64,000 bases of DNA from Dysidea avara (taxonomy: Eukaryota; Porifera; Demospongiae; Dictyoceratida; Dysideidae). Under the pieces are notes generated by a model. That model saw only the letters and a program-made list of their open reading frames with translations, was not told where the DNA came from and searched no databases. The position numbers and the translations under genes were made by a program. The stretch spans positions 5,419,277 to 5,483,276 of the forward strand of contig NC_089281.1 in assembly GCF_963678975.1 (NCBI RefSeq), read 5' to 3'. Shown one piece after another: positions 5,037 through 48,412 of the stretch (position 1 is its first letter; the number at the start of each line of letters is the position of its first letter).

Positions 5037-5359
5037 ACAGCACACATGTTAGATGTTAAAATACTATAAAAAGTGGGGTTCAGGTAATACAAAACTCAAT
5101 TCAATTGCAAAATAATTGACACACAAAAAATCTGAAATTCAAACAACGTAGTGATTTTTTCATTAGAAAATTTTGAAGTGGTGGGTTTTATATTAGAGTA
5201 GTTATAAAATCTTTGCATACAGTATGTATATCATGACACAAAACAATAGGGTGTCCACTTGTCCCAATGAAAACTGGACTATCCACACATGATTTTAAGT
5301 GTTCAATATGTACAGAATCTATTTAAATTAGATGTGATTTGCTGTTTATTCTTGCACAG

Positions 5360-5613
5360 TGTGATAGCCAAGTGGTACAGCACGAGCAACGTCAAGTTCT
5401 ACTTTCACTGAGGGCTAATTCGAAGGCACATAATACAATATTGACAGCCTATTTATACAAAAACTGAAGAACGTTCTAGAGCTTGCCAGCTCAGCATATA
5501 CAGTGCCACAAAAATCAAAATTACAATCAACAATGTTCAGTTATTAAACGGCTTCCTGGGCTTGATCATTCAGGTTCCTGCTAGCTTCACACTTCAGCTG
5601 GTTTCCTATCACA
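5360..5613 (-). repeat. 3' LTR of the Gmr1-like element
   Basis: 254 bp, TG...CA bounded (TGTGATAG...CTATCACA on the plus strand). It differs from the 10117-10370 LTR at three sites. The pol reading frame runs about 70 bp into it and stops at 5544. Confidence 0.95.
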
Positions 5614-8600
5614 CTCCTCCCCCCTTCTTGAACTTCAAATTGTCCGGTTGGATCATCCTCCCAAGATGGCATCCAGGACAGCACGTCAGCATTGGCGTTG
5701 TCAGTGCCCCTCCTATGTTGGACCTGAAAGAGGTAAGGTTGTAATGCCAGACTCCATCTCATTAGTCTAGTATTGTGATCCTTAAATTTTGTAAGCCACT
5801 GCAGTGCTCTATGATCAGTTTGGATCACAAACTCTCTACCCAGTAAGTATACCTGAAAAGCTTCAATACTTAACTTAATGGCTAAACACTCTTTCTCTAC
5901 TGTGGAGAACCTTCGCTCTCTAGGTAAAACTTTTCTGCTAAAAAAGGCTACTGGGTGATCGTATCCTTCGGCATCCTGCTGGCTCAGGACTGCTCCTACT
6001 CCTACATCGGAGGCATCTGTCTGTAAGATAAAAGATCTAGTAAAGTCAGGATTTCTTAGAACAGCAGGTGACAACAATATTTCCTTCAACTTACTAAAGG
6101 ACTGAATACATTCTATACTCAAACTCACATGCTCTGGAACTGACTTCCAGGTGAGATCGGTGAGGGGCGCAGCAATAGTGGCATAGTTAGGGATGAAACG
6201 CCTATAATAGCCAGACAGTCCAAGATATGAGCGGATGTGCTTCTTGGTTGTCGGAAGCGGAAACTGAGCTATTGCCTGAAGCTTGTCCCTCTCCGGCTTC
6301 ACCACACCATTTCCTACTACGTGCCCCAAATATGCACATTCTGTCATACCCAACTGACACTTTGAAGGCTTAGCTGTTAAGCCCAATTCCTGAAGGCGAT
6401 TCAACACTGCTTGAAGGTGTACCAGGTGATCTTCCCAAGTCATACTGAACACAATACGGTTGTCTAAGTAAGCACAGGCAAACTTGCTCATTCCTCTAAT
6501 AACATGATCTATCATGCATTGAAAAGTTGCCGGTGCTCCACAGAGACCGAATGGCATCACACAAAATTGATATAACCCCTGTGGTGTTATAAACGCTGTT
6601 TTTGGGCGATCCTCTTCCGCAACTGGCACCTGCCAATATCCCTTGGCTAGATCAAGAGTGGACAGATACTTGGCCTGCCCCACCTGGTCCAGGATGTCAT
6701 CGACCCGTGGCATTGGGTAAGCATCAATCTGAGTCTCTGCATTCAGTCTTCTGTAGTCCATACACAGCCTTATGGTGTTGTCTTTCTTCTTGACAACTAC
6801 AATTGGGGAAGCCCACTCACTACTACAGGGTTCAATAATGCCTTCAGCAAGCATCATCTCGATTTCCCTTTCCACAGCATCTCTATATGTGTGGGGCAAC
6901 CGATAAGGCTGCTGACGAATGGGAGTATCCTCCTTCACTCGGATGTGATGCTGACAGACAGTAGTCCATCCACACTTACCACTCATCATTGTCCTGAACT
7001 TTGCCAACAAGTCAGATAGCTGCCCCTTCTGCTGCTCTGACAGTTGGTCACTTATGGTTGGAGCATCACTACCCTGATACTGCCATGTGGGTACAAACTC
7101 TTCCTCATCCACCTCCATGTCTTCTGATGACCAGAAGCTTGTAGCTACTGGTGGATACCACTTCTTCAGCATGTTTATGTGGAATACCTTCCTCCTCTTC
7201 CTCTTATCTGGCATCAGCACCTCATAATTCACTTTGCCAACCCTGCGTAGTATGTGATACGGCCCTTGCCACTGGGCTAACAACTTATTACTACTAGTGG
7301 GTAGCAACACAAGTACCTCCTCATCCGGTTGTAGCTCTCTGTCTCTAGCTGTCCGATTGTACCACTTCTTCTGGTGTGACTGTGCTGCGCTAACATTCTC
7401 TTCTACAAGCTCGGTCATCTCCTCCATCCGTTCACGAATTAAAAGAATGTGAGATACCACACTCTCATCACTCCTCTAGTCGGCCTCCCACTCCTCTTTA
7501 AGTACATCAAGTGGGCCTCTAACCTCTCTTCCATACAGGAGTTCAAATGGGGAGAATCCCGTTGTATTGTGAGGAACCTCACGATAAGCAAATAAAACAT
7601 AAGGCAACAGCCTGTCCCAGTCACGACCTTCATTATCAACAAGCTTCCTCAAAAGTGACTTGAGGGTTCAGTTGAACCTCTCTACCATTCCGTCGGTCTG
7701 AGGATGGTAGGGTGATGTACGGATCCGGTGTATGTGCAAGAGATTGTACAACTCCTTAAGAAGTTGCGACATAAAGTTGGTACCTTGATCTGAAAGGATT
7801 TCTCTGGGAATACCCACTCTGGCAAACAACTGAATCAACTGTTCTGCCACTGTCCCTGCATCAATGGAGCGAAGAGGCATGGCCTCTGGATACCTGGTGG
7901 CATAATCGCAGATAATCAATATATACTGATTACCTTTTCTACTGCGAGGCAGAGGACCAACAATGTCCATAGCAATACATTCAAAAGGTTCTCTCATCAT
8001 TGGTAAAGGTATCAGAGGCACTCTTCGCTGGCTTCCCTTTGCAGTACATTGACATTCAGGGCATCGGCGACAATAGTCTGCCACATCACGGAACAGAGTT
8101 GGCCAAAAGAAGCGTTTAGAGATTTTCTTGGCTGTCTTGTCCCTGCCAAGGTGACCTGCAAGTGGGATGGTATGAGCCAACTTACACACTATCGCGTGAA
8201 ACTGTTCTGGCAAAACCAGTTGTTCAACAGTCTCCCCTAGCTGTGGCTTCGAAGTCCACAGATGATACAGTAGACCACCTAGCTCAACAAACTGTTTTGG
8301 CCTCCTCCTTATCATATCCTGAATGCCCATAACCTCATCTTGAAGTGTACGTAGCTCCTGCTTAGTCATCTCCACATTAGGAATATCACCTTGCAGCCTC
8401 ATAAGACATGCCCACCTATACCAATCCTTCCTCTTATCAGATCTCGACTTTCTTGGTGTTAGAGCCCTGTCATCTAAAAACATGTCATCATCAAAATTGA
8501 ACTCACCTGACAATACAGACTGCTCGCTACTGTCAGGACCCGGAGAAACACTCTTTTCCTCCACTTGCTGCTCACGTGTCATGGCTACCTCAGGTTTCTG

Positions 8601-9053
8601 TGCAAGCCTTAACCTACCGGAAGAATCACTTGATTTTCCTTGCTCTGCATGAGCTGCCCGTTGTAGCCTCTGAGCCTGACTTCTGGTAACCACCATAAGG
8701 GCTTTTCGCCATTCTCTGACCCTCAACAAACTTAGCTTCAGAACGTCCGTTCCCAGTAACACCGACTGCGGTAGTGTCTCTGATACTGCAGCCTCTACTG
8801 TCACAGCTTCCCCCTCTACTTCCAATTCCACATTGGCGAGAGGAGAGGCTACAGCATCCCCATGAGCACACTGGATTGTAACAGACTCACCCTTCATCAG
8901 CTTCTCCTCACTGACAAGGTCCCTATGGACTAAGGTTCTAGTACAACCAGTATCTAACACAATATCAGATACAAACTTACCATCTACCACCCCTTCACAC
9001 TTAATTACCAATGGCTTACTCTGAGAGACTTGAAGGGACTCTTTGGTCCACAA
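5544..9053 (-). pseudogene. Pol polyprotein of the Gmr1-like retrotransposon (PR-IN-RT-RH), inactivated
   Basis: One reading frame on the minus strand, broken by stops at 7668-7670 (just after the integrase motif VERFN) and 7476-7478. Domains in order: aspartic protease (VLDTGCTRTLV); integrase with an HHCC zinc module (around HLGRDKTAKKISKRFF and CRRCPEC) and DDE core residues in AMDIVGPL, SDQGTNF and GMVERFN; an integrase C-terminal GPY/F-like segment (WQGPYHILRRVG); then RT (EWASPIVVVKKKDNTIRLC, LDLAKGYWQ, MPFGLCGAPATFQ) and RNase H (LQTDASDVGVGAVLSQ, TDHRALQWL). The RT catalytic box, YxDD in active enzymes, reads YLDN here. The protein would have acted in cytoplasmic particles and then the nucleus. 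Confidence 0.9.
5614..5628 (-). promoter_or_regulatory. Polypurine tract of the Gmr1-like element
   Basis: On the minus strand the bases just before the 3' LTR read GAAGGGGGGAGGAG, a purine run in the position used to prime plus-strand DNA synthesis. Confidence 0.8.
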
Positions 9054-10066
9054 TAAAGAGCCTCACTAGGACATCGTCTCGATGTATGTCCTCTACCACC
9101 ACAATTGTAGCAAACTAAGGGCTTATCTTCTCGCTTCTTCTCTCCCTTAGTAGAATTGTCCCCTTTAACAGCATCCTCCCCTTTCACAGGTATCGTCTTT
9201 TTGGGACAGTCCTTTGCTAGATGGCCAGGTTGTTTACAGCTGAAACATACCTTTGGACTGCTCCTCTTTGGCTCTATACCTGGAGTCCACAGATCCCTCT
9301 TCCTGGCTTGTCTGTAATTCTCAGCCAGTCGACCAGCTTCCTCACTGGTTCGGGGTTTCCTCTCATTGACCCACACCCTGACTTCTTCAGGTAAAACATC
9401 AACAAATTGTTCCTTAACAAGCTCATCAACCACTGCCGCACGATCTACACACCCTTTTAGCCATTTCTCTGCCAGATCCCAGACACGAATAACCAGCTCT
9501 ACAGGAGTTTCATTTTCCTTTGGCTTCACTTCACGGAATCGTCGCCAGTATGTTTCTTCATTAATGTCATAACGACGAAAAATGGCCGCCTTGACCCTAT
9601 CATGGTGTCTAGCATCCCGGTCGCTCATAGCAGCATAAGCAAGTCTAGCCTTCCCTGTCAGCTGAGGAGCCAAAATCGCTGCCCATTTGTCTCCATCTAC
9701 ACCATAGGCTTCTACTGCTCTTTCGAAGGTGGTGAGAAAAGCTTCGATGTCGTCGTTCTCCCCCAGCTTGGTATGTTTCAGTGACTCAGGTCCTACCTCT
9801 ACGCGCCGTGGCCTTCGCTCCATTAGCCCTCGAACTAATTCTTCATACTGCCTCCTGTCTGCTTCCCGTTCAGCCCGTCTCTCTTCTTCATAGTGGCGCC
9901 GTTCTTCAAGCCATGCTTTCTCAAAGAGTTCTCGCTCTTCTTGGCGTCTCTCCTCTTGCCTACGGGATTCCTCCATCCAGGCTTTAAGCAAGTCTGTGAC
10001 TTCTGACATCTCGGACCCCTCGCTTGTTTCTGGATGGTATCTTTTCCCAGAACGTAGCATACACAA
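9005..10066 (-). CDS. gag: Gag nucleocapsid protein of the Gmr1-like element
   Basis: A 353-codon intact frame starting MCMLRSGKRYHPE. Residues about 25-90 are an Arg/Glu-rich, probably helical stretch (repeated EERRQEERE-type pattern). The centre has a retrotransposon gag-like segment (FRRYDINEETYWRRFREVKP). The C-terminal third carries two CCHC zinc knuckles, CFSCKQPGHLAKDC and CYNCGGRGHTSRRC, which bind RNA in this family. It overlaps pol by 49 bp in a different frame (pol lies -1 relative to gag). Gag should assemble the intracellular particle that houses reverse transcription. It is the only part of this element without an obvious break. Confidence 0.88.
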   Translation of the reverse strand: MCMLRSGKRYHPETSEGSEMSEVTDLLKAWMEESRRQEERRQEERELFEKAWLEERRHYEEERRAEREADRRQYEELVRGLMERRPRRVEVGPESLKHTKLGENDDIEAFLTTFERAVEAYGVDGDKWAAILAPQLTGKARLAYAAMSDRDARHHDRVKAAIFRRYDINEETYWRRFREVKPKENETPVELVIRVWDLAEKWLKGCVDRAAVVDELVKEQFVDVLPEEVRVWVNERKPRTSEEAGRLAENYRQARKRDLWTPGIEPKRSSPKVCFSCKQPGHLAKDCPKKTIPVKGEDAVKGDNSTKGEKKREDKPLVCYNCGGRGHTSRRCPSEALYCGPKSPFKSLRVSHW

Positions 10067-10098
10067 GCCAGTAAGTCTGTCACTGCCGGGACGAAGTA

Positions 10099-10115
10099 AG
10101 CACTCCTGTCACCAA
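10099..10115 (-). promoter_or_regulatory. Primer-binding site, tRNA-Leu-like
   Basis: On the minus strand, one or two bases after the 5' LTR, the sequence reads TGGTGACAGGAGTG. Its complement CACTCCTGTCACCA differs by one base from the usual animal tRNA-Leu 3' end. The match to tRNA-Leu is from memory of tRNA ends, so the tRNA identity is likely but not proven. Confidence 0.65.
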
Positions 10116-10116
10116 G

Positions 10117-10370
10117 TGTGATAGCCAAGCGGTACAGCACGAGCAACGTCAAGTTCTACTTTCATTGAGGGCTAATTCGAAGGCACATAATACAATATTG
10201 ACAGCCTATTTATACAAAAACTGAAGAACATTCTAGAGCTTGCCAGCTCAGCATATACAGTGCCACAAAAATCAAAATTACAATCAACAATGTTCAGTTA
10301 TTAAACGGCTTCCTGGGCTTGATCATTCAGGTTCCTGCTAGCTTCACACTTCAGCTGGTTTCCTATCACA
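10117..10370 (-). repeat. 5' LTR of the Gmr1-like element
   Basis: 254 bp, directly followed by the CACAG target duplication at 10371-10375. On the minus strand this LTR should hold the promoter of the element. Confidence 0.95.
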
Positions 10371-10375
10371 CACAG

Positions 10376-16935: not shown

Positions 16936-18320
16936 TTAAACACTCGTTTCAACTATTTCCCGAAACACCTTTAAAGTGATGTAAAACTGTTTAGCTAATG
17001 GTTGGCCTAATGCAACAACTAGCTCCCTATATCTGTTCCTCATCATTTCTAACTGATGTTCCTTTATGTGGTACAGGCTGGCTGCTTCTCCGAGTGGCAT
17101 AAACGCATGTGTATCACCGTCTTTAAATTGTGTTAGGTCTAGACAAACTGGAATTGTATCAACATTAATTGTACCATGTTCTGCCTCATATGAAGTAACA
17201 GCTACATCATAGGCATTGACTTTAAAGGTAGCTGTAGATGGCTGTACTGAATCTACAGGGTGTATTTGAGACAAAAGGTCACCAGTTGTAGACAAAGTGG
17301 TGGAAGAATTGTCAATCTGTTTTTCTTTACTTGCGATGCACTGGTCAACCCCATCAACTGTAGCAATCCATTGTGTGTTGATACAAGGGCAGAAAAATTT
17401 GACTGGTGTGTAATCAGCCTTGTATGCCAGCTTTTTGTTATTTGGGTTCCACCCCTGTAGATAGTAATACTTCATAGCAGGATTCTGTTTGGCCAGTGTA
17501 CACACATACTCGATCTCTTTAATAGCACTGTACACCCCAAATGAGTACCTATTCACTTCCTTGCTATTCTCATACCATATGTAAACACTAACAACGCCAC
17601 ATGGTACCACATCTATTACACCTACTGCAGCTAGCTTGTCACCAAGGTAGGATTCTTGGTGAAATGTACCATACGTTACACCATTTTCTCCTTCTTGATG
17701 TCTGTAGGGACTATGGACTATGTGTTCTGAATATGAGAACTCGGACTTGATAGCCTTGTCGTGCTTACTGACATGGTAGCTGTTGTAGAGGTCAAAAGCT
17801 TCCTGGTTGAAATAAGCAGGAGAAGTTTTGATGCGAATGTTATCTGGCATCCTGCACATCACCTTGCGATAACTTTTACTCTTTGTGTGTTCAAATTCTA
17901 GAGCACTGACCCTGGTTTCCCAGTCGCAGTAGCTCATTGTGTGGTTCTCTCTTAATCGGAACATCTTCACACCACCTCTCCTATACCAGCCATAATTGAT
18001 CAGATTCTGATACTGCTGTGGCGTCAATTCATGAACACGCATCACCAACTCAGATAAGCTTTCGTCTTTGTCACAATTACTGCACATTCCATAAGTTGCA
18101 CTGAAAAGTCTTCCCACACAGAATGAATTTTCTGGTGTACAATTCTTTGCCCTGAGGTCAAGCATGGGTGCCCTGTGTTGTAAATTGTCACTACCATGTG
18201 AAGGGAAATCCCCACCCTCTTCAACCACACGAGTGATCGCCTGTATGTTATTAATGGATGGATCTTTTGTTTGGTCTGTACTTCCTGCCAGCTCTGGTAA
18301 AGTTATAGTGTAGAGGCTTA
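16936..18320 (-). CDS. ATE1: Arginyl-tRNA--protein transferase (ATE1 homologue)
   Basis: The frame is open from about 18320; from a GTG at 18228 it gives 430 residues, and the real start or first exon is unresolved. ATE1 moves arginine from Arg-tRNA onto N-terminal Asp/Glu (and oxidised Cys) of proteins, marking them for the N-degron pathway. Numbering from 18228, the N-terminal domain has a C49-x-x-C52 pair and QYQNLINYGWYRRGG, matching the family's 'D-L-x-x-x-G-W-R-R-S-G'. The C-terminal acyltransferase fold has TYGTFHQESYLGDKLAAVGV, FGVYSAIKEI and MKYYYLQGW. The tail AFMPLGEAASLYHI fits the family ending. The linker is shorter than in human ATE1 (518 aa). The second conserved cysteine pair (CC) appears as a single Cys in MSYCDW. 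No stop or frameshift is present. An ARM-like remnant lies immediately upstream. Confidence 0.85.
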
Positions 18321-25719: not shown

Positions 25720-28700
25720 GTGCGGCCCTGAGAAAGGCTATGGTGAAAAAAGATGTGAAATCCAAGGTGGCGGCTAAGAAATGGCTGTGATGGTAGGTTA
25801 ATGGTAAACATTTTAATAACAACAATTCAGGTGAATTTTCTGCCAAGACCAAGCGGCACCAAATTCACCTGAATTGTTGTTATTAAAATTTTTACCATTA
25901 ACCTACTATCACAGCCATTTTTTGGCCGCTACCTTGGATTTCACATCTTTTTTCACCATAGCCTTTCTCAGGGCCGCACTCTTTTTTTACAGCTTGGCTG
26001 TTTTGGATTAGATTTCACTTCTTTTTGTATTTGTATACCCCAAAGCCGGCCTATGGCCAGCTTTAGGGCTTTTTAACCTGTCATTTCTTCTTTACTACAG
26101 GAAGAAGAAAAGATGAAGCAGGGTGATTCCTTTGAAGCTGACCTCTCTGCAAGGTGATCCTTCTAGCTGATCTCTCTACCGGATGACTTGTTTGTAGCTG
26201 AACTCTCTACAGGGTGATTTGTTTGTAGCTGAACTCTCTACAAGGTAACTTCTTCTAGCTGATCTTTCTACAGGGTGATTTGTTTGTAGCTGAATTCTCT
26301 ACAGGGCAATTTGTTTGCAGCTAAACTGCTGAAATCTCTACAATGTAACTTCTTCTAGCTGAACTCTCTACGGGTGGCTTGTTTCTAGCTGATCTCTCTA
26401 CAGGGTGACTTGTTTCTAGCTGAACTCTCTACAGGGTGATTTGTTTGTAGCTGAACTCTCTACAAGGTAACTTCTTCTAGATGATCTTTCTACAGGGTGA
26501 TTTGTTTGTAGCTGAATTCTCTGCAGGGCAATTTATTGCAGCTGAACTCTCTACATGGTAGTTTCTCTGTAGCTGAACTCTCTACAATGTGACTTCTTCT
26601 AGCTGAACTCTCTACAGGGTGACTTGTTTCTAGCTGATCTCTCTACAGTGTAACTTGTTTCTAGCTGAACTCTCTACAGGGTGATTTATTTGTAGCTGAA
26701 TTCTCTACAAGGTAACTTCTTCTAGCTGATCTTTCTACAGGGTGATTTGTTTGTAGCTGAATTCTCTACAGGGCGATTTGTTTGCAGCTGAACTCTCTAC
26801 ATGGTAGTTTCTTTGTAGCTGAACTCTCTACAATGTACGTACCTTCTTCTAGCTGAACTCTCTACAGGGTGACTTGTTTGTAGTTGAATCCTCTACAGGG
26901 TGATTTATTTGTAGCTGAACTCTCTACAAGGTAACTTCTTCTAGCTGATCTTTCTACAGGGTGATTTGTTTGTAGCTGAATTCTCTGCAGGGCAATTTGT
27001 TTGCAGCTGAACTCTCTACATGGTAGTTTCTTTGTAGCTGAACTCTCTACAATGTAACTTCTGAACTCTCTACAGGGTGACTTGTTTGTAGCTGAACTCT
27101 CTACAAGGTAACTTCTTCTACCTGAACTCTCTACAGGGTGACTTGTTTGTAGCTGAACTCTCTACAAGGTAACTTCTTCTAGCTGATCTTTCTACAGGGT
27201 GATTTGTTTGTAGCTGAATTCTCTACAGGGCGATTTGTTTGCTGCTGAACTCTCTACATGGTAGTTTCTTTGTAGCTGAACTCTCTACAATGTGACTTCT
27301 TCTAGCTGAACTCTCTACGGGTGACTTGTTTCTAGCTGATCTCTCTACAGGGTGACTTGTTTCTAGCTGAACTCTCTACAGGGTGATTTGTTTGTAGCTG
27401 AACTCTCTACAAGGTAACTTCTTCTAGCTGATCTTTCTACAGGGTGATTTGTTTGTAGCTGAATTCTCTACAGGGCGATTTGTTTGCAGCTGAACTCTCT
27501 ACATGGTGGTTTCTTTGTAGCTGAACTCTCTACAATGTAGCTTCTTCTAGCTGAATTCTCTACAGGATGACTTGTTTCTAGCTGATCTCTGTACAGGGTG
27601 ACTTGTTCCTAGCTGAACTCTCTACAGGTGATTTGTTTGCAGCTGAACTCACTTACATGGTGGTTTCTTTGTAGCTGAACTCTCTACAAAGTGACTTCTT
27701 TTAGCTGATCTATCTACAGGATGACTTGTTTCTAACTGAACTCTCTACAGTATGATCTGTTCATAGCGGAACTTTCTACTGGGTGATTTGTTTGCAGCTA
27801 AACTCTTTGCATGATTGTTTCTTTGTAACTGAACTCTCTACAATGTGACTTCTTCTAGCTGATCTCTCTACAGGATGACTTGTTTCTAACTGAACTCTCT
27901 ATAGTGTGATCTGTTCATAGCGGAACTTTCTACTGGGTGATTTGTTTGCAGCTAAACTCTTTGAGAGAATAAACGTCTTAATGATTAAGACAAAATATAC
28001 ATTACGGGGCCTAGACACAGGGGTACCATGTGCTGATGGATCAGTACAGGAGCCCTGGCAAGACTTACATTAACTAAAAGTAACAATACACCAAAAAAAA
28101 AATCTATATCTACATATATGTAATACTTAAAGTTTATAAAAGGTGGTCTAAAAGATCCCAGCCCGGGGAGGCTCTAGAATTAAAAATTCTGTAAGAACAG
28201 GACACAGCAATGCGCATGATTGTTTCTCTGTAACTAAACTCTCTACAAGGTAACTTCTTCTAGCTGATCTCTCTACAGGGCAATTTGTTTGTAGCTGAGT
28301 TCTCTACAGGGTGATTTATTTGAGCTGAACTCTCTACATGATGGCTTCTTTGTAGCTGAACTCTCTATTAGGTACCTTCTTCTAGCTGATCTGACTACAG
28401 GGTGACTTGTTTGTAGCTGAATTCCCTACAGAATAACTTGCAATGTAATATAACTGAGTAAATTATACATGCAGCTGAATGCTTTATTAGGGTGACTGTT
28501 CTATTAGAGTATCTCGATCTCACATTTGCTGCACGTAGTTGCCTTTCGAATCATAACTCAGTGCTTTGTAATCCGATTCTTCTGTACTACTGCAAGAACT
28601 TTCCATGATGATTATTCCAGCTACATACTGATTTTCAGCTCGTTGCTCTAAGCGGTTTGCCTGGTAGACACGAAAACTAATAGTTTTTTTATTCATAAAA

Positions 28701-29304
28701 TCGATCGCGTAATTTTGACACAGGTTGGGTTTTGTGTCTTATCTCCATGGTCTTTATCCCGATTCCTTTCAAACCACAAAAAGGCACTCCTACGATGGTT
28801 GCTCCATCTACATATCAATTTTCAACTGATTCCTCCAAGGGGTTTACCCTGTAGGCGTGACGGACCTTCGACCTTATTTTACACAAATAATCGGTCATAA
28901 CTCCGTGAATGTTCATCGGATTCCTACCAAAGTTGGTACGGAGATCCGCCTTAATGAGCCCTTTAAGTGTGCCAAATTTCAGCCCAATCCGAGCACGCAT
29001 TCGTGTTTTATGGCGAATTTTGCGAAGTGTGCGAAAGGAAGATGAAGGAGAAAAAAAAACGAAGAAATTAAAACGAAATTTTGTTCGCTCGTATCTCGAA
29101 AATGGCTGGAGCGATTTTCTTCAAATTTGGTATGTAGACTCCCCTAACTGGGCGGCACGTCTCTAGCAAATTTACTTCCAATCGGATAAGGGATCACAGA
29201 GGTACATAGGTGTGAAAATTGCGTTTTCTTTCTTCCTGTTAATATACTCACGGTGTGGCGCGCCGGCTTCTTGGGCCGCACGACACACTATCGTGTGTCT
29301 TGAT
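25720..29304 (+). repeat. Composite repeat copy C (fold-back, minisatellite, tail)
   Basis: Order: a fold-back palindrome (25720-26012, left arm truncated relative to copy D); a linker with the hairpin GCCGGCCTATGGCC; a minisatellite of 29-32 bp units (26118-28440) interrupted by a foreign segment; then the conserved tail with ACACACTATCGTGTGT-CTTGAT ending at 29304. It is in inverse orientation to copy D (39500-44415) and very similar to it across the tail. No protein-coding gene is supported inside. Confidence 0.85.
27966..28214. other. Insertion of about 250 bp within the minisatellite of copy C
   Basis: A minisatellite unit is interrupted after AACTCTTTG and resumes at GCATGATTGTTTCT. 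The inserted DNA has an A-rich run (CACCAAAAAAAAAA) and a short hairpin GTCTTAATGATTAAGAC. It might be the 3' end of a LINE or SINE on the minus strand. Not identified. Confidence 0.5.
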
Positions 29305-32300
29305 GTAGTGAAGGTTAACATTGGCTGTCAAGACATTGAAATAGATCAGAGCGTTCCTTTCCAAATATCCGACATTCAATTTGCCATAGAAAAAGTAAGT
29401 GATTTTCGATCTTAAAATGACAAGCTTAAATTTCCTCTGATTTCCTTCTGCTATAGCTCATCTTAATCGCTATTCACTGCTCTTTCCAAATCTGGTTCGA
29501 ATCTGAGGTATCTATCACGTGTCATGGGTTATTATGCCTTTTATTGCATGACTCCAAAACACTCAATACAAAATGTATGGGGAAATCTGGTCAGTTTAGG
29601 CCATTTTGACAAGCCAAAATTTCCGTGAATTGGACTCCGTTTGGCATCATTGTACTTGCAGAGAGTTGCTCTAGATGTATCAAATTCAGAAAGTTACTAA
29701 ACAGACTCGAGATAGGCGGTACACGATAATTAATTAAATTTTTAATAATTTTTCAATTGAAATGTATTGGACATGCCTGTTCCAGATGGAATTTTTGCCA
29801 TGAACAAAAGTATAGCAAATGTCCGCAAACTTCTTGATATGCCTGTCTATTCGGGTCTCTGTGTAACAATGTCAACTGTTTAAACAAATAAAATCCCCAA
29901 ATGTTTATTTTGTGTAAAAAGTGACAAATTTAAGTGTATTGCATTTAAGGCTCACCTATCTGTTTTTACAGGCAATCTAGTCATTGTGATTTACCCACCA
30001 ACAGTGGATGTGGTTGTGATACTTAACTCTGAACCAGGTAGGACCCTTATTAGTATTGTGAATTTTGGATCAGTTTACATACAGAATTCAAGGAATTATA
30101 TGGTGTTTTCTATTGTAGTGCTCAATGTTGTGAGGTCAAAAGGTGTCATGAATTTCTACATGATTAGTTGATATTGTACTATCTCATATGATGGTAACAA
30201 ACTAATACCCAGGTCAGTTTACGTGTTGTGCGTATAGTATTAATGTTTTCCTAGTACACAGATTCTTTGATATATTGTATGTATTAATGACACTGTTGGT
30301 TTTGCAGGCGCCATCTGGTCATAGCAGTTCACGTACTAGCAGTCGGATGTAGTCATGGTAAGTCATGTTTGACCAGGTAAAAAAGGCTTGCTTGTTGTTT
30401 TACAGGACTGGTATCTTGTGTTGTCAGAATATGTGTTTTGTGGTGACCACAAGCCCAGCCCTAGTGATAATTGGCCAGTTGTCTGATTAGCAGCTTTGAC
30501 TTAAGGTATGTGCACAAGCTCACAGCAATTGTTTCGTAAGTTGTACTTTTATGCACTATAGTGTAACTTAATGTTACTTAAGATCAGGTATTGGTTGTAA
30601 AATGGATTAAACAATATATCAGGCATTTGCTTAGCTTAAAAGTGGGAATTGCGACAATTGCAATCCTGAATTTCCTGTTGTATAGCTAAGAAATATATTT
30701 AACATGTACATGTTGTACATTCTGTTTGGTGGCCACTTGTTGTTTGACAGGTCTCCTCATGTTCATGTTTACATACTTAGGCACCAAACACATTTACGTT
30801 ACCTCTGGTACACCAGATTCACTTATAGCCTTGAATATAATTTTTAATGTTTAATTCAGTGCCTGCATGCTTGTTCTTTTACAGGGCTCACTTAATCTTG
30901 TGTCATCATGAAGACATCTAAGAAATGATCACTTGGTGTTAAACTGATGTTTATTAAATTTTTGTTATGTGTTATAATAGCACTGTTACATATTTACTCT
31001 ACTGCAAGAAATTTTCATGAATTCTGCAGCCATCTTACCCACAATTAGAATTGCCTTATTAGTAGCTGTCACGGCAGTTCACACTTCCACAGCAGTTTCA
31101 CACTTCCACAAAGCACCATCAGTGTAAGGCAGAGCTTGTGTTGTGGCTTTCATTATGTATGTAATGTAGGGCAACAAATTTTGTCTGAAATGTGGTTTGT
31201 GACCGTGTACATGAGTTTTTGTCATTCCACACAACTTGCAAAATATTTCTTGCATCATAAGTGGTGCATGGCACTAAATGGAGTATTGACTAACGACCTT
31301 ACCTAGTGTTTGTACGTTCTTTTATCACGCTTTCACACCTTATTTATAAGACATCTGCCGATTATAAACGCTCGCATGGGGCGTGGCACTAAATGGACTC
31401 TAAAAGATTTCTGCTTAAAACGCCTTCCCTAGGGAACTTACGGGTCTGCACGCTTTCACAACTTGTTTGTCAGACATTAGGGCTTGTGTCCACATCATGT
31501 CTTCAAAAGTTATTGTAGGGATTAGAGGTTTGAATGGAGAAAATACGAGTAGGGCCAACCAGAATTAGATAATGTCAGGCCTAGATGGCTGGTACAAACA
31601 CGGGTAAGATGGCTGGTATAACATGACGATACGTGTAATACAAGGTAGAGAAATAAAGTGAAATATGTCTAAATACGGCTATATTTTTTATTTTAGCAAG
31701 GTCGCAAGAAAACGACGACTAAAGATTTTTTTATTATGTAACCCAATACAAATCCATTGAGAGATGTTGCATAATCCAGGGCTAATATTGTGAAACCGAC
31801 CCTACACGTAAATAACTCACAGTAGTGGCCGCGTCTTTTAATAGGGCGTGCGCTTCGTAGTTTCTTGGCCGCGCGCCTCACTACCGTGAGTCTTGATCAC
31901 TTTTTTTACTACTGATCTGATACCAAATATATTATAGGTGGAAATGGCAGATACTGATCTGTTACCAATACTTTGCCACAATGACATTACTCACAAGAAA
32001 CAGTTACAGCACCAACTTAACCAATTAATCTTATTTCGTGACTTTAATTACTGCTTTTTCCACCATACTATAATACCTATCTTCTAGAATTCATGCCTAG
32101 CTATCTATTAGCTCTCTATTTCACATGCTATATATGCCGCCATCTTGAAAACCAATATAATTACATCATATGAAGCATTGGGTGGTATCAGGCATTTATA
32201 GCTTTACCTACTGCATACACAGGAAGTCTGGTACTGCCAAAGTAGGGCCGAAAGCAATACTAGTATCTGTGTCAATGCATCACTAATGTTGTGTACATAT

Positions 32301-32712
32301 ATTTTTAATGCTGTACGACTGTGACTACAATTGCAAGTGATTATACTGCCCAGTAATCATGATTATGCAATTAATTGCATTCTGTGTTGTATTCTGAGTT
32401 GTGTGCCTTCATTTAGAAAGGTTTACAGTCACTCGTCTCTATTTTGTGACCTGAGGCTCCCTTACTAGCATTGCTTATGATACAGGTAGATTCTAGGGTG
32501 ACAGAAATTGGTTTGGAGTTTATTAGCTAATATGGCTCTTGACAGTACGGAGAATATAATTATATATAAATATATCATTTTCAATTAATCAATTATTTCA
32601 GTTTTTTGTGATTATTGCTTATCATGATTAGTGCTGCAATTGATTAATTGCATAATTGATATAATCACACAGCCATAGCTTTAGTTTTGCATTTATAGAA
32701 GGTTTGTCTTTA
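29305..32712. other. 3.4 kb without a firm gene
   Basis: Contains one exon-like segment directly after repeat C (29314-29394, ending AAAAA|GTAAGT). It also has two diverged copies of a roughly 75-bp block (near 29972 and 30308), a 115-bp tandem duplication sharing TGGCACTAAATGGA (31269 and 31384), and the end of a distant relative of the composite repeat (31800-31897). No protein family is recognised. Confidence 0.45.
31800..31897 (+). repeat. Terminal module E, distant relative of the composite repeat tail
   Basis: It ends TTTCTTGGCCGCGCGCC, then TCACTACCGTGAGT and CTTGAT. The layout matches copies A-D, but the stem is changed on both sides: inner CACAC/GTGTG becomes CTCAC/GTGAG. Upstream sequence is not alignable by eye to the other tails, so this looks like a separate family sharing the same 3' terminus. 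Confidence 0.6.
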
Positions 32713-33041
32713 TAGGTTACCTTCACATACCATTCCAGTAGAATCTAAAAGATATGAAAAGCAGCAGGTTATTAATGACTTGAAAGAAATGCTGGCAAGC
32801 AAAGCAGTGGAGGGATTGCCCACTTATTTTGTTACTCTTCCTATGGAGTTAATACATAACCACAAACTGATAGGGGCAACAAGGCGAATGAATTCTGACA
32901 TCAGAAATAAAATCCGAGAGTTCGTATCTGACAATATCACTAATGCCAAACTTATAAAAGTCTTTTGAGAAAGTACGTGCAATGCCAGTATTCATCAGAT
33001 GCTGTAAAGTCACATGTCAACAGACCGTTCCTATTATCCAC

Positions 33042-33737
33042 CAGTGTTGAAGCCGGGTCACTACTGCTGACCCAGATGACCCACTGACCCGGATAACAAT
33101 CCGGGTCAGACCCAGATTTGACCCAGATTAATTAAAGCCGAGACGTGCGATAACAGCTATGTTTCGTTTATAGTCTCAAGCAAGCAAGACTACGTTTTGA
33201 GCGTTCAATTCATGTTGAGTAAACTAGTAGTTATGTGATAACTAAGCCGGTAAGTTTATAAATCTAAATCAGTCCGTGGGTTTTGGTTCCATGTAGCTAC
33301 TGTGAGTTTACAGACAGCAATTGGGTGTGGCTTCATGCATACCTTGTATTACAATTTCCTGATATATTGAAGTGGGTGTGGCTCACAAAAGAACATATAT
33401 CCTACTGCAAGATTTGACAATATACAACTCTTACAATAATCAATTAGTGGGCTTGGCTCCACGTAAGCTTGCAGACAGCCAACGGACAGACTTTTGTGCT
33501 ACAGACTGCACTTACTAATAAAAAATAAATAAATGGGAGTGGCTGAGCGTATGTTTGTAATGCAATAAGTGGGAGTGGCTCACAAAAGAGCTACGCGACT
33601 AGCGATAAGTTTCCACGTCGTCAAATGAACAATTTTGTTTCTCACGTGATCCAATCCGAGTCAGACCTGGATAATTTGTAAACCCGGATGACCTGGAGAA
33701 TATGTGACCCGGATTACCCAACCCGGTTTCAACGCTG
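33042..33737. mobile_element. hAT-type MITE with perfect 8-bp target duplication
   Basis: 696 bp bounded by CAGTGTTGAAGCCGGGT and the inverse AACCCGGTTTCAACGCTG. The 8-bp duplication TTATCCAC lies on both sides (33034-33041 and 33738-33745). Length and termini fit the hAT superfamily. It disrupts the transposase pseudogene. A second, truncated copy is at 3060-3206. Confidence 0.88.
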
Positions 33738-36726
33738 TTATCCACATGAGCGGGACATTACCAACTGTGTACACAGTATCATGTCAGCTGGTAAATATTC
33801 CCATTTAGATCAATTAATTTGGAGAAGGTAGTCACAGACTGGATAGTTAGTGATGCAACTAAATCAATTGAAGAGAGGACTAAAGTATACTACAGGAAGT
33901 CCAGCACAGAATTTGGAGGTGATGCTTTGTTGTCTGTTGAAGCTGTTATAGGAACTATAGCAGAAATAGCAGATGTTTCGAAACAAGGGTTTAGTGGTGA
34001 TATTGATCATGACACAGAAAGTGAAGATGCGGAAAATGAGACTGATCTTTCTCAAGCTTCTAAGTACTTTTCTTGTCGTATATCAAGAACCATAGCAGCA
34101 GAAATTACTTCTGAAGTATGGAAATATACTAACTCTGATGGACGCAACGTACAAAACCACTAAGTATGCTGTACCACTCTTTCTTTTATGTGTGAGAAGC
34201 AGCTGTGGTTACATACCCGTGGCACGTTTTATTATCGAACAAGAAAGTGCCTTCCATATAGCTGAAGCTCTAAAGATCATATCACATTGGAATAGTGGTT
34301 GGGTTCCACCATACTTTATGATTGATTACAGTGATTCTAAGTTGAACGACATCACCACTGTGTTTCCACAAGCTGAAGTGTATCTTTGTGAATTCCACCA
34401 TGAACAGGCTTGGAGTCGATGGATAAGAAGTGGTAATAATATTGAATGTGCATGAATTGCATTGTTACTCTGCCTATGTATAGGAAAGAACTGCCTTCTG
34501 GATGATGAAAGAGAGCAACTTTTACATTTGCTATGAGAAGTAGCTTTTTCTGGAACACAAAGGCAGTATCAGGCAACTTTGGATGCACTATTGGCCAGTA
34601 GTGTATACAAAAATCATCCCCGTGTTCAATGCTATTTAACAACCAAGTGGCTTGGTTGTACAATGGTTAGCGAAATTATATAGGTATTTCTATATATACA
34701 TACACACATACAATATTTTTGTGTACCATTAGCTGGTAATTTGTGAAGGTTTACATTTTTATTTTTGGATATTTCGAAGAGGCCCTTTTCTTTGACAGTA
34801 AATTCCCATGTCTGGGTATTCACCAAAAATAAATTCCCACCTTGAAGTGCTTTTATGTGATCCACGTTTTGGTGTATTCCTTGAGTTTTAGCTATATACT
34901 GTATATAATATGGTCTGGTGCTTGTTGCCAGATAATCATTAGTGCAATTTGTACATTGTTATACCATATCAAAATGTAACTCAGTATTAAATGACGATAT
35001 TGGTTATCATTACTGTGCTGATACAGGTTGTTTGGGTTTTCCATCATACCTGACATTTCCTGTGTGTATGTCTGTGTGTATGGTGTGTATGTATGTATAT
35101 ACGAGCTTCATGTTGTATGAATTATGTTATAAATGATCCTTTTACCCAGTTGAAAGTGGCAAAGGCTTGCATGCATATGTGTAATACAAACTTGGAAAAC
35201 AATAAGAAATGTATGTACCATAGTGAGAATGTCCTAAAAACTTTCTATAATTGGTGGCCTATTAAGGACAACAAGTGAGTGTCATTTCAAGATTAATTAA
35301 TTAATTCGTAAATAAATAATTCATCAATTAGCTGTTTCCATTTTGTTTTAAGACAATGTAATATGGTTTTAGTAATGGCAAGGTGAAATTTTCATCCTAC
35401 TTTATTTCACAAAATCATTAGCCATTTTTAGCAATTTACTATTTGTTTAAACTAATTCATCAGGCTCTTCAACTAAATTGAGACGAGATGTGTATGTTAT
35501 ATCAACATTTTATTTACAGAGATGGTGTGATGCTTTTCGCAGACCAGGATACCACTCCAGTGTGAAGACCAACAATGGGGTTGAATCGTTAAATAAGTTG
35601 TTTAAGCACTGTACTATTACAACAATTTGCACACAGACAAAACAGTTACTGGTCTTTGCCAAATCATGTGGGATAGTTTTCTTCCTGATACCATTCACAG
35701 ATATACCATTGACAATGTGAAATTTTCTTCAGATTTCAAGCTTTATGATGAAAGTATTCCTCCATATTTAAACAATCGACCACAGTGGTTTGTAAAGCAC
35801 TGTATGTGGCGGCTACATGCTGCTACAAGATTCGCTGGTGAAGATATTCAGATACTAACTGCATCTACATTCATTATCAGGGGTCAGAGTTTCAAACAGC
35901 AGCAAGATTCAAATGAAAGAAATTCTTATAAGGTGTTCCTAGGGTCTGATGATGAGTACCCAACCTGTGAATGTGTAGATTTCAAGCAACACTGCTTACC
36001 TTGTAAGCACATGTTTGCTATCTTAACAGTAGTTCCTGGCTATTCATGGGAGTCCTTACCTGTTTGTTTTAGTACTAGTCCACTTTATAATATTGATGAA
36101 TCGGTGTTTTCTGTAGACCAGAAACAAGATCTGGTGTACAATCTTTCTACCCCAGTCAATCAAAAAAATTCTGTTGGATTGAGTGATCAGTTGAATGATC
36201 AGACTGGTGCTGCTGGTGAAGATCACACAATGGATATCATGTGTACAGAAGACACAATAGATCTAGACATATCATCACCTCACACACCTCAGATTGCACT
36301 GCCACAAGATGAAGGGAATTCTAAGGCTATAAATTCACTGACAGTATCGCTTAGGTCTAACCTTCAATGTCTTCAAGATTTTTCTTATTTATGCAAAGAA
36401 AACACGTCTCTTACAACTGTTAATAACTGCATTGAATCTGCTTTACACACTGCAAACTCTTTTCTAAAAAGAGAAGGTGGGCTTACTCTACAACCCACAC
36501 CTGAAAAACGAAGGAAAGTGAGCAAAGAAGGCAAACAAGCTACGATGTCTTCCTTCCCATAAATGCAAGAGAAGACTAAGTTTGTTTGATCGATACAAAA
36601 ATCGTGTTGGTAAACTTGCTGATACTGTGAAAGCTAGTTCGCATATTTCTATACCTGAAGCTAAAGCGAAACATATCAAGTAGGTTAAAAGAAAAACAAT
36701 AATTATTGTGAAAAAGTATCACAATT

Positions 36727-37151
36727 AGGCCTGAGCCAATTATGCTTTGAAAATTGCCTATTATGCTTTTGAGCAGTGCTCAAAAATCCAGCCTATTATG
36801 ATCAAAATTATTCTCTCAAAATCAAGATTATGCTCGAGAGCTGACCGTTTTATTAGAGTATATCTAGACTGCTGTATTAGAGTAAGTGACTGCTCTATTA
36901 GAGTATCTCGATCTTATTTCCATAAAGTGTGAATAATCAGTCAAGAAATTGTAAAAATAATAACAATGCAAGGTTTTTGATATGAAATGCAGTAATAATG
37001 TGTAGTGTGTTCATGTTGTGCAGTATTTTGGCGCGCGTATTGCACGTTTTAATTAAAACTCTTGAAAATTGTCCTATTATGCTGGCATAATGCTTGATGC
37101 TTTTGCTAGCCTATTATGCTCAAAATTATGCCAGCATAATTGGCGCAAGCC
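36727..37151. mobile_element. MITE of the AGGCYTGNGCC family, copy 1
   Basis: Ends AGGCCTGAGCCAATTATGC and GCATAATTGGCGCAAGCCT are inverted repeats. The interior holds repeated 'CCTATTATGCT' blocks and three tandem relatives of CTATTAGAGTATC (36846-36912). It lies between the SWIM and Ulp1 segments of the MULE locus, perhaps in an intron. No clear target duplication. Confidence 0.65.
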
Positions 37152-37265
37152 TAATCAGAATATGCAGAAAGAAAAGCCAGAGAATAAAAAGGATTCAGTG
37201 AAGGATGCAGCAGTGAAAAAAAGGAGAAAAAGGTTACAGAAGATATTCAAATTGTTGGCATTTAC

Positions 37266-38030
37266 ATGCAGTGTACTGTTGATCCTTATAAGAGGCGACT
37301 AATGACTAATCTTGATTTTGAGATAATACTAAACTCAAATTGGCTGAATGATACTATTATCAATACTGCTCAGAACTGCTTGCACACCCAGTTTGAATTA
37401 CCTGGGTTGTATGACACATCTCTAGGCCCTCATTTATCCTACCCAAAAGCTGAGGTTTTCCACCAGATTTTACATGACTCTAATCACTGGGTCCTTGTGT
37501 CCACTTTTGGTTCTCCTCACCCAGCTGTCAAGTTGTTCGATAGTAACTATCATGATAAAATATCATCAAGTGTTCAGAAACAAACAGTGTCAATTCTTCG
37601 TACATCAGTTGATAAAATTATATTCTTTGTGCAGTCTGTCCAACAACAGATGAATACCAGTGACTATGGTGTATTTGCAATTGTGTTCCTTGTCGAATTT
37701 CTCTTTGATGGCAATCCCACTACTGTCATGTTTGATGTTGGGAAAATGAGATCATACCTACATTGTTGTCTTAGGAGCAGAAAGTTTGATCACCCTTTCC
37801 CAAAGGTAGAAGGCGAACATGAGCATAACCTACCATGCAAGCTACTGATAGAAATTCCTGTATATTGTGTGTGTAGAATGCCATACTTTGAAGGTGATGA
37901 TGAAGTCAGGGAACTTCAGATGGCAGAATGTGATCGGTGTCATCAGTGGTATCACAGAAGTTGCATTTCAGTGCCAGACTATGTTTTCAAACAAAAAAAA
38001 AACAGATTTTGGTTTTGTTCAAAGTGTTAA
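37266..38030 (+). pseudogene. Ulp1-like (C48) protease domain with C-terminal PHD finger, catalytic Cys replaced
   Basis: A 254-codon frame. Ulp1 signature: NWLNDTIINTAQNCL, His74 in DSNHWVLVST, Asp92 in VKLFDSNYH, and a Gln-rich oxyanion segment before SDYGVF. In active C48 proteases that last motif is DCG; here residue 134 is Tyr (TAT at 37665-37667), so the nucleophile is missing. A C4HC3 PHD finger follows: C201-x-C203, C222-x2-C225, H230-x2-C233, C251-x2-C254, ending at the stop. The coding frame extends upstream of the ATG to about 37188, so an acceptor there is likely and the ATG is internal. Active relatives cleave SUMO or ubiquitin-like proteins. This copy could only bind, if expressed. 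Confidence 0.75.
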
Positions 38031-39009
38031 CTGTTCATAATATGGTAATGATTTTTCAAGCTTCATGCATTGCTTTTGCAGCATTTAATTCTTAGTGTGT
38101 TTTGTGTTTAATTTGTGTGCATGTACATGTTTGGGGAGGGAACTAAGGGGGCATATATGCCATTAGTCGGGCCAGGTGGGGAGGGAACTGAGGGGACATA
38201 TACACCTTAGTCAGACAAGGAGAAAGATAGTTTTGCAGGTCTAGCTCATGGGGGGAATGTAGAGTATCAATGACTGGATGAAAGGGGTTAACTTTTTGTA
38301 TGGAGAGCTAGAGTCGGATTGCGTTTCACTTTAAAAGGAAACAACTCAGATAGCCAGCATCATTAATATTAGTGATGAACAAATCCTATATAGGGCAGCC
38401 ATAGAGCTAAACGGCGCCAACATTATTCCAGTCCTCACAGAGGGGGCGCCGACATTTATGGATACTGCAGTTTAGAAACCTCTATGATGTCATGACATCA
38501 GATCTCTGATGATTAGTGAATCCCCATTTGCGTGACCAGGGGAGTTACACTTCTCGACTGGCACGTTTGCGTGACCAGCGAGGTACTCCTTCCCGGTTGA
38601 CACATTTGCGTGACTACCGGGGAATTCAGTCCCGATTGGCACATTTGCGTACCAAAAGCAGGGAAACAAGGTAGTGACTGCGATGTAGTCCTTGGCGGGT
38701 GGTCGACACGGCTCACGTGCTGAGAGGAAAACTACCGTTTTCATTCGCTCCAAACATCAGACGACCCAGAAGAGCTTGTCATAAGGAGCTGTCAGTGGAT
38801 ACTGCCTCCAAGATGTTGTCCAACGTAGATCTACAGGCCATGGCTTTATCACACTTTCAGACCGTACATGTGCTGCTGCGAGCAAGTAAAAGGGCTGGTA
38901 CCAGAAGTGATGTCATGCTATTTATGGAGTTTGTGCTTTTAAGTGCTGTAGTGCAAGTGTTATAAGGGGCAATACCATATGTTAATCAGTGCTGTTAATA
39001 TACCTTGTG
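38031..39009. other. Spacer between MULE locus and second LTR element
   Basis: No gene recognised. It contains two near copies of 'GGGAGGGAACT(A/G)AGGGG' (about 38137 and 38179) and a 39-bp tandem repeat (38527-38665). An open frame at 38699-38965 has no supporting motif. Confidence 0.5.
38527..38665. repeat. 39-bp tandem repeat, about 3.5 copies
   Basis: TTTGCGTGACC/TTTGCGTGACT/TTTGCGTACC starts recur at 38527, 38566, 38605 and 38644, exactly 39 bp apart. Units are diverged in the middle. The period is 13 codons and both strands stay open, but no flanking gene supports coding. Confidence 0.8.
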
Positions 39010-39216
39010 TGATAAACCTTGTTAGGGTTCAGCACAGGAGAGATACAACAACTCCAATGCTCTCAAACAACCAAGTGATACATGAGGCATGGTGTGTGTG
39101 ATTTACAACATGAGGTGTTGATCAAGAATGTCTTATTACAGGAATAACTAGAGTACCGTTACCTAATATAAAAGTTACAAATAAAACAAATATAATAATA
39201 TCCATGGTCTGTTACA
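39010..39216 (-). repeat. 3' LTR of the second gypsy element
   Basis: 207 bp. Minus-strand start TGTAACAGACCATGG. Preceded on that strand by the polypurine tract at 39217-39232. Confidence 0.9.
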
Positions 39217-39259
39217 CTATCCCCCTCCTTTTAAAGGATGTCCCATCCATTTACTGTAG

Positions 39260-39495
39260 CTAATGTTGAACATAGTCATTAAGACGTGTAGGAGGTCTTC
39301 GCTATCTTACTGGATATCTGCGGATTGCATTTGTGTCCGTTGTTGGTAGTAATATTGGTATAACAGCATCTTCCATGTCATCATCGTCAATCAGTTCTAA
39401 GTTGGTGCCATACGGTTCTGATGTAGAGGGTGTATCTGTCTCTGCTTGTTGAGATGGTGCAGGCATGTTAGCAAGTGAAGTCTCATCCATTACAT
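39260..39495 (-). pseudogene. C-terminal end of gypsy-2 pol, separated by repeat copy D
   Basis: The minus strand reads NVMDETSLANMPAP, an acidic stretch (LIDDDDMEDAVIPI), then RRYPVR, an in-frame stop and a basic Arg/Pro tail ending at 39260-39262. Such short basic tails close many gypsy polyproteins. Its upstream half ends at 44420 beyond copy D, in the compatible frame. Confidence 0.7.
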
Positions 39496-40375
39496 TTACA
39501 TCAAGACACACGATAGTGTGTCGTACAGCCCAAGAAGCCGGCGCGCCACACCGTGAGTATATTAACAGGAAGAAAGAAAACGCAATTTTCACACCTATGT
39601 AGCTCTGTGATCCCTTATCCGATTGGAACCAAATTTACTAGAGACGTGCCGCCCAGTTAGGGGAGTCTACATACCAAATTTGAAGAAAATCGCTCCAGCC
39701 ATTTCCGAGATACGAGCGAACAAAATTTCGGTTTAATTTCTTCGTTTTTTTCTTCTTCTACTTCTTCATTTCGCACACTTCGCAAAATCCGCCATAAAAC
39801 ACGAATGCGTGCTCGGATCGGGCTGAAATTTGGCACACTTAAAGGGCTCATTAAGGCGGATCTCTGTACCACCTTTGGTAGGAATCCGATGAACATTCAC
39901 GGAATTATGACCGATTATTTGCGTAAAATAAGGTCGAAGGTCTGTCACGCCTACAGGGTAAACCCCTTGGAGGAATCAGTTGAAAATTGATATGTAGATG
40001 GAGCAACCATCATAGGAGTGCCTTTTTGTGGTTTGAAAGGAATCGGAATAAAGACCATGGAGATATGACACAAAACCCAACCTGTGTCAAAATTACGCGA
40101 TCGATTTTTATGAATAAAAAAACTATTAGTTTTCGTGTCTACCAGGCAAACCGCTTAGAGCAACGAGCTGAAAATCAGTATGTAGCTGGAATAATCATCA
40201 TGGAAAGTTCTTGCAGTAGTACAGAAGAATCGGATTACAAATCACTGAGTTATGATTCGAAAGGCAACTACGTGCAGCAAATGCGAGATCGAGATACTCT
40301 AATAGAACAGTCACCCTAATAAAGCATTCAGCTGCATGTATAATTTACTCAGTTATATTACATTGCAAGTTATTC

Positions 40376-43300: not shown

Positions 43301-43985
43301 TAGAGAGTTCAGCTGCAAACAAATTGCCCTGTAGAGAATTCAGCTACAAACAAATCACCCTGTAGAAAGATCAGCTAGAAGAAGTTACCTTGTAGAGAAT
43401 TCAGCTACAAACAAATCACCCTGTAGAGAGTTCAGCTAGAAACAAGTTACACTGTAGAGAGATCAGCTAGAAACAAGTCACCCTGTAGAGAGTTCAGCTA
43501 GAAGAAGTCACATTGTAGAGAGTTCAGCTACAAAGAAACTACCATGTAGAGAGTTCAGCTGCAAACAAATTGCCTTGTAGAGAATTCAGCTACAAATAAA
43601 TCACCCTGTAGAAAGATCAGCTAGAAGAAGTTACCTTGTAGAGAGTTCAGCTACAAACAAATCATCCTGTAGAGAGTTCAGCTAGAAACAAGTCACCCTG
43701 TAGAGAGATCAGCTAGAAACAAGCCACCCGTAGAGAGTTCAGCTAGAAGAAGTTACATTGTAGAGAGTTCAGCAGTTTAGCTGCAAACAAATCGCCCAGT
43801 AGAGAATTCAGCTACAAACAAATCACCCTGTAGAAAGATCAGCTAGAAGAAGTTACCTTGTAGAGAGTTCAGCTACAAACAAACCACCCTGTAGAGAGTT
43901 CAGCTACAAACAAGTCATCCGGTAGAGAGATCAGCTAGAAGGGTCACCTTGCAGAGAGGTCAGCTACAAAGAAATCACCCTGCTT
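40376..43985 (-). repeat. Minisatellite array with higher-order structure
   Basis: About 3.6 kb of 29-32 bp units. Four unit types alternate (CAAACAAATCACCC, AGAAGAAGTTACCTT, AAAGAAACTACCAT, AGAAACAAGTCACCC) around a common GTAGAGAGTTCAGCT core. A rare deletion variant, CTGTAGAGACAAACAAATCA, recurs at about 41641, 42278 and 43099, with the same neighbours. This shows that blocks of several hundred bp were duplicated as units. Confidence 0.88.
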
Positions 43986-44089
43986 CATCTTTTCTTATTC
44001 CTGTAGTAAAGAAAAAAATGACAGGTTAAAAAGCCCTAAAGCCGGCCATAGGCCGGCTTTGGGGTATACAAATACAAAAAGAAGTGAAA

Positions 44090-44415
44090 TCTAATCCAAA
44101 ACAGCCAAGCTGTAAAAAAAGAGTGCGGCCCTGAGAAAGGCTATGGTGAAAAAAGATGTGAAATCCAAGGTGGCTGCCAAAAAATGGCTGTGATGGTAGG
44201 TTAATGGTAAAAATTTTAATAACAACAATTCAGGTGAATTTGGTGCCGCTTGGTCTTGGCACAAAATTCACCTGAATTGTCGTTATTAAAATGTTTACCA
44301 TTAACCTACCATCACAGCCATTTCTTGGCCGCCACCTTGGATTTCACATCTTTTTTCACCATAGCCTTTCTCAGGGCCGCACTCTTTTTTTACAGCTTGG
44401 CTGTTTTGGATTAGA
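44090..44415. repeat. Fold-back palindrome at the outer end of copy D
   Basis: 326 bp of two inverse arms of about 150 bp (TCTAATCCAAAACAGCCAAG ... inverse at 44396-44415) around a centre near 44250. The palindrome is shared with copy C at 25720-26012, where one arm is shortened. Confidence 0.85.
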
Positions 44416-46811: not shown

Positions 46812-47013
46812 AGGCATTTTCACACTTACCATTAATGTGCATTGAATCTAGATTGAAACTGAATTCACGCTTTCACACTTGAAGCACTTCGTAATCGAAT
46901 TACCATCCAATGCGCATTCCTGCCAAACCACTTGTGGAAGTGGTTTGTGAGGACACGATGAGCATTAGTTGACGCACGCCGTGAATACACGTGACACTTC
47001 CCGCACAGGAAGC

Positions 47014-48172: not shown

Positions 48173-48412
48173 TACGTTTCCTTATGAACCGTTTACAGAG
48201 TATCCACCTTTTGATCATTCTATTAGTCATTGTTCATCCCCTTCAAGTCATGATAGTACTGACAGTGTACATTCAAAATGAACAATATAACAGTGGTTAG
48301 CAAGGATTGTAATTTTTACTAAGGGCATGAAAAGGTTGTAATGTATGTGTAAAGGTTTTTACCGATGTGAGTATAGGTAGTCTTTCAGTGTTTCCCTGAC
48401 ATTGTTAGCAGC

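Follow-up and report, generated by a model that had tools for sequence, protein, structure and literature searches.

A degenerate integrase-first Ty3/gypsy retrotransposon, very probably of the Gmr1 kind, and its relatives in the same genome

Introduction

The closest described systems to the element reported here are the Gmr1-like retrotransposons (Gmr1 of Atlantic cod and the Gmr1 clade). Their Pol domains run in the order protease, integrase, reverse transcriptase (RT), RNase H (PR-INT-RT-RH), as set out in passages of two earlier papers (PMC2582038, PMC8220671), and they combine this order with a SCAN-type Gag and with an RT and integrase of gypsy type. In the portions of the literature consulted here, Gmr1-like elements are placed in fishes, a tunicate, frogs, crustaceans and an annelid, and the Gmr1 clade is counted as one of five present in several phyla. 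Passages of two papers (PMC4592553, PMC3424704) trace the origin of the SCAN domain to Gmr1-like Gag, and a passage of a third (PMC4131045) states that in frogs only Gmr elements carry SCAN, and that more than half of them do. SCAN in Gag is a feature that such papers associate with Gmr1-like elements, not a formal definition of them.

We analysed an LTR retrotransposon, E1, in a 64-kb stretch of DNA (the window; positions without a contig name are counted within it), which corresponds to G000:C10:5419277-5483276 of the host genome G000 (551 Mb, 108 contigs). E1 resembles the Gmr1-like elements in all three properties named above. Its order of Pol domains is also that of Ty1/copia elements, but its RT and integrase sequences are instead Ty3/gypsy-like. 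With normal-order Ty3/gypsy elements of the same genome (a second element of the window, E2, and the loci L060 and L061), E1 shares the types of its RT, RNase H and integrase domains, whereas these elements have RT ahead of integrase, Gag pieces without a SCAN match and a place on the opposite side of the trees. E1 is also smaller, at about 5.0 kb with LTRs of 254 bp, than four pufferfish-order Gmr elements, whose consensus sequences measure 6.1-6.5 kb, with LTRs of 337-518 bp, in part of PMC11117352, and its host is probably non-bilaterian, unlike that of Gmr1 of Atlantic cod. E1, a degenerate copy of a Ty3/gypsy retrotransposon with integrase first, very probably belongs to the Gmr1 kind.

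Structure of the element

E1 occupies positions 5355-10375, target-site duplication included, and all of its features other than the duplication are given on the minus strand. Its two LTRs (5′ LTR, 10117-10370; 3′ LTR, 5360-5613) are 254 bp each, start with TGTGATAG, end with CTATCACA and differ at 3 sites (98.8% identity). They are flanked by the 5-bp duplication CACAG (5355-5359 and 10371-10375), so the clean LTRs of the preliminary description are borne out. A TGG-initial stretch, TGGTGACAGGAGTG, lies 2 nt past the 5′ LTR (10101-10114) and is, as read from the sequence, a putative primer-binding site; a polypurine tract, AAGGGGGGAGGAG, abuts the 3′ LTR (5614-5626). Two LTRs, a target-site duplication and a polypurine tract are general features of LTR retrotransposons. 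A blastn search of the 64-kb window found no second copy of E1 parts.

A Pfam search of the ORFs of the window gave the order Gag, protease, integrase, RT, RNase H. The gag ORF (9005-10066; 353 aa), which with its SCAN domain had escaped the preliminary description, encodes a SCAN-type capsid C-terminal domain at aa 171-257 (9296-9556; Pfam 2.6e-18). Chains of SCAN domains in the PDB match it at 6e-8 to 2e-5, the solved domains of ZNF24 and PEG3 at 6e-8 and 7e-8, respectively. Two CCHC zinc knuckles follow, at 9200-9250 (Pfam) and at 9068-9115 (position taken from a zf-CCHC_4 match).

In pol, the aspartic protease (8736-8990, with DTG at 8954; Pfam gag-asp_proteas 4.8e-8) precedes an integrase composed of an HHCC zinc domain (8043-8210; Integrase_H2C2 1.7e-17), a DD35E core (7701-7991; rve 1.2e-10) and a C-terminal SH3/GPY-like domain (7158-7301; SH3_Tf2-1 2.4e-10, Integrase_p58_C 3.1e-10). 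The catalytic residues are D363, D422 and E458, with 35 residues between the latter two, and the glutamate lies just beyond the rve match, at 7679-7684. RT (6318-6794; RVT_1 9.8e-34), with its motif YLDN at 6459-6470, and RNase H (5733-6047; RT_RNaseH 1.1e-37) come after the integrase. Judged by these matches, the domain series is not due to chance. The placement of protease and integrase (HHCC, DDE, GPY/F-like) ahead of RT and RNase H, as first described from motifs, thus agrees with the Pfam order and the catalytic residues. The originally described span, 5544-9053, does cover pol, but pol only, and the 'one frame' attributed to it applies to pol except that two in-frame stops (7668-7670 and 7476-7478) break it.

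State of the E1 copy

The gag and pol of E1 lie in different frames. A programmed frameshift between them was considered and rejected, the XXXYYYZ heptamer being absent from the stretch scanned around the overlap. In L011, a 91% relative of E1, the sequence from the knuckles into the protease is a single open frame, and in L014 and L022 one open frame holds SCAN, knuckles and protease. Because these relatives lack the break, we read it as damage private to the E1 copy. With this frame break, the two stops in pol and the RT motif YLDN, the copy is, on the evidence of its reading frames, dead, and E1 would no longer be able to move by its own means. The likeness of the LTRs, a relative measure with no rate for dating, suggests that the insertion is probably fairly recent.

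Integrase-first relatives in the host genome

The host genome holds at least 102 matches to the protease-integrase piece of E1 and at least 95 to its RT piece. Matches on the same strand and within 5 kb were paired, using 92 of the 102 integrase rows and 94 of the 95 RT rows (those dropped were short second pieces). Integrase lies upstream of RT in 49/49 paired matches (48 distinct RT matches; E1 included), and identity at the integrase piece ranges across these from 100% down to 32%. The pairing left 43 of the 92 integrase rows and 46 of the 94 RT rows single; two single RT rows were examined (L060 and L061), and both are RT-first. Both match lists are ordered by likeness to E1 and so favour the integrase-first kind.

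A domain search gave the same picture, in sets that overlap with each other and with the paired matches, E1 being in each. Integrase comes first in 20/20 integrase-anchored loci and, without qualification, in 28 of the 30 RT-anchored loci (E1 included in both counts). The two remaining loci are L048, which has no integrase match, and L044, in which integrase and RT are followed by a second integrase match. This second match of L044 (3226-4086 of the locus, about G000:C6:26267820-26268680) is downstream of RT in the same reading phase, and perhaps belongs to a neighbouring element. Two divergent loci, L062 and L063 (32% and 40% at the integrase piece), are also integrase-first. The search of the host genome, which the preliminary description had proposed, has returned many diverse relatives with the same order, some of them in long open frames (for example, of 1524-1553 aa).

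Scans for relatives with peptide patterns matched 8 loci in genome contigs and 3 plasmid records, one of these an insect-associated gypsy-like element catalogued as a Wolbachia plasmid; the same kind of scan found none among viral contigs (four scans) and no match among phages.

Normal-order elements

The host genome also holds RT-first elements, namely E2, L060 and L061. In E2 (44603-52448, minus strand), the ORF 46832-45765 encodes RT and RNase H, and the ORF 45871-44603 encodes integrase. This is the usual order, as had been claimed for a second gypsy element of the window. The RT of E2 is split, with its N-terminal part at about 50238-49948 and the remainder from 46832; a DDE-transposase-like ORF (HTH_Tnp_4, 48876-49436) sits between the two parts.

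RT comes first in 10/10 elements of a set consisting of E2 and L001-L009, in which L008 is a composite fragment. L001-L008 are contigs of bacterial metagenome-assembled genomes (MAGs); as their RT and integrase are of gypsy type, they are probably eukaryotic contamination. L009 (NZ_CP087956.1), deposited as a Wolbachia plasmid of 5.3 kb, carries a gypsy-type protease, RT-RNase H and integrase, and is likely insect host DNA.

Trees of RT and integrase

Trees were built with rows from E1, E2, L001-L009 and L030-L063, leaving out L010-L029 and applying length floors. Removal of near copies (at least 88% identity) reduced the RT rows from 42 to 20 and the integrase rows from 40 to 19. A branch separates the integrase-first rows, all of which come from one genome, from the RT-first rows in the RT tree (8 vs 12, support 99/98) and in the integrase tree (8 vs 11, support 100/99). 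One contaminated MAG supplies six of the RT-first rows in the RT tree and five in the integrase tree. As the trees are unrooted and lack a Gmr1 reference, this one-sidedness is not equivalent to proof of a clade. L002 and L003 form long branches in the integrase tree. Earlier trees of 10 rows each, for RT and for integrase, likewise set E1 apart from E2.

Since the order of E1 is common to other copies and one-sided in both trees, it is, on this comparison, inherited and no local accident.

The host and other features of the window

COX1 has 21 matches in G000, and no mitochondrial contig is among the matches listed. These matches are nuclear inserts of mitochondrial DNA, since they lie on large contigs and several have stops. 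The best of them, L064, has AGA/AGG at arginine residues 71, 155 and 188 of the aligned COX1 chain and TGA at tryptophan residue 101, a codon use that fits mitochondrial code 4. In bilaterian mitochondria, AGR as a rule does not encode arginine. AGR read as arginine in L064 thus suggests that the host is probably non-bilaterian.

Two further gene families were searched. Wnt has 27 matches in G000, several with stops, with local clusters at C13:5319186-5499499, C4:39070841-39475844 and C15:7774667-7815182; these genes mark the host as an animal. The innexin family has two weak matches, scoring 30 and 27 bits against a family cut-off of 25, at G000:C9:10648999-10649316 and C8:23417155-23417490; the open frames that contain them are 391 and 386 aa long. 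Innexins are reported to be lacking in sponges, so the two matches would lean against a sponge host if they are true innexins and not members of a related channel family. The host may be a sponge, a cnidarian or some other non-bilaterian.

Elsewhere in the window, a region of about 18.7 kb (25720-44382) has inverted ends made of repeats at 31-bp spacing, with arms up to 99% complementary. It encloses ORFs, one with a PHD finger, as well as SWIM-like and Ulp1-like stretches recognized by eye, and may represent a giant DNA transposon similar to Zisupton/KDZ elements. On the minus strand, there are also a 694-aa ORF with an NB-ARC domain (58170-60254) and a 430-aa ORF of the arginine-tRNA-protein transferase (ATE) type (16936-18228).

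Identity of the element and competing explanations

The preliminary description had called E1 Gmr1-like, and this reading is supported: integrase is upstream of RT, both are of Ty3/gypsy type, Gag is SCAN-type, and the order is heritable, being common to other copies and one-sided in the trees. Gmr1 ancestry would rest on the order and on SCAN, as the trees were drawn without a Gmr1 type sequence.

That same composition of the trees leaves some room for an independent gypsy lineage that reached a copia-like order separately and is not the sister of Gmr1. A further point in its favour is that the host seems distant from the deuterostomes that yielded the first described Gmr1 elements. The capsid argues otherwise. 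SCAN is present in the Gag of 8/8 integrase-first elements tested (E1 counted among them) vs 0/5 RT-first ones. Besides E1, it was detected in pieces L014, L022, L063, L068, L069, L070 and L071 (E-values 1.3e-13 to 1.5e-20), while an overlapping further frame piece of L063 is without a SCAN match. The order of these elements was taken from domain scans (L014, L022, L063), via L062 (L069) or via match pairing (L068, L070, L071). The RT-first sample consists of five elements: no SCAN was found in Gag of L060 and L061 with E-values up to 0.01 (L061 has no gag-family match of any kind), nor in Gag of E2, L003 and L004 with E-values up to 1, the Gag pieces of E2 being fragmentary. Since passages of the papers on SCAN (PMC4592553, PMC3424704, PMC4131045) tie it to Gmr1-like Gag, a SCAN-type Gag favours the Gmr1 reading of E1, and we consider a separate origin improbable.

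We give hardly any credence to a local rearrangement, in which an ordinary gypsy element would have had its integrase shifted upstream in the E1 copy only, and we found nothing in its favour. With E1 excluded, the order is still common to 48/48 paired matches and 19/19 integrase-anchored loci. Within E1, a single open stretch encodes both RT and the C-terminal domain of the integrase, and the gap from RNase H to the 3′ LTR is about 120 bp, which is too short for a second or lost integrase downstream. Moreover, the RT of E1 is only 40% identical to that of E2. A move private to this copy had been raised at the outset as the finding that would overturn the description; the shared order elsewhere in the genome and trees that split both kinds exclude it.

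That E1 is a true Ty1/copia element, as its Pol order alone might suggest, is scarcely believable, given that its RT has its best PDB matches to Ty3 (5.6e-82), that its integrase matches those of spumavirus (8.6e-24) and Ty3 (4.3e-19), and that its RT_RNaseH and integrase C-terminal domains are of gypsy/retrovirus type.

Discussion

The anatomy, domain order, LTR identity and duplication of E1 are observed, as are the order and SCAN shared by its relatives and the separation in two trees. As to its replication, we infer that the Gmr1-like element most likely used an ordinary LTR cycle. This would start with transcription from the 5′ LTR; the Gag-Pol precursor would be cleaved by the element's own protease, reverse transcription would be primed by a tRNA and the plus strand at the polypurine tract, and the integrase would insert the resulting DNA, giving the 5-bp duplication. 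E1 would depart from this cycle only in its Pol order, with the integrase C-terminal domain directly before RT.

The integrase-first kind of element is already known. Among the open-access papers listed, no title or abstract reports Gmr1-like elements from sponges (Porifera, Amphimedon) or from cnidaria; two retroelement papers mention Porifera, but, in the parts consulted, in other contexts. As far as these sources extend, E1 and its relatives are therefore new for the host group. Two things take the finding past routine annotation: how deep the integrase-first radiation runs in this probably non-bilaterian genome, and that the order and SCAN occur together.

A tentative proposal, to which we lend less than even weight, is that integrase-first order and SCAN-type capsid share a single common origin, and that both were established before the bilaterian line parted from sponges or other early animal lineages. 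If this is true, the order would have persisted while these elements diversified deeply in the host genome (with paired relatives down to 32% at the integrase piece), and the vertebrate SCAN domain would descend from a very old animal capsid. With several divergent integrase-first families, all SCAN-type in Gag where tested, beside normal-order gypsy elements in one probably non-bilaterian genome, it becomes possible to test whether the swapped Pol order has a single origin, and to ask the age of the capsid that gave rise to the vertebrate SCAN transcription factors.
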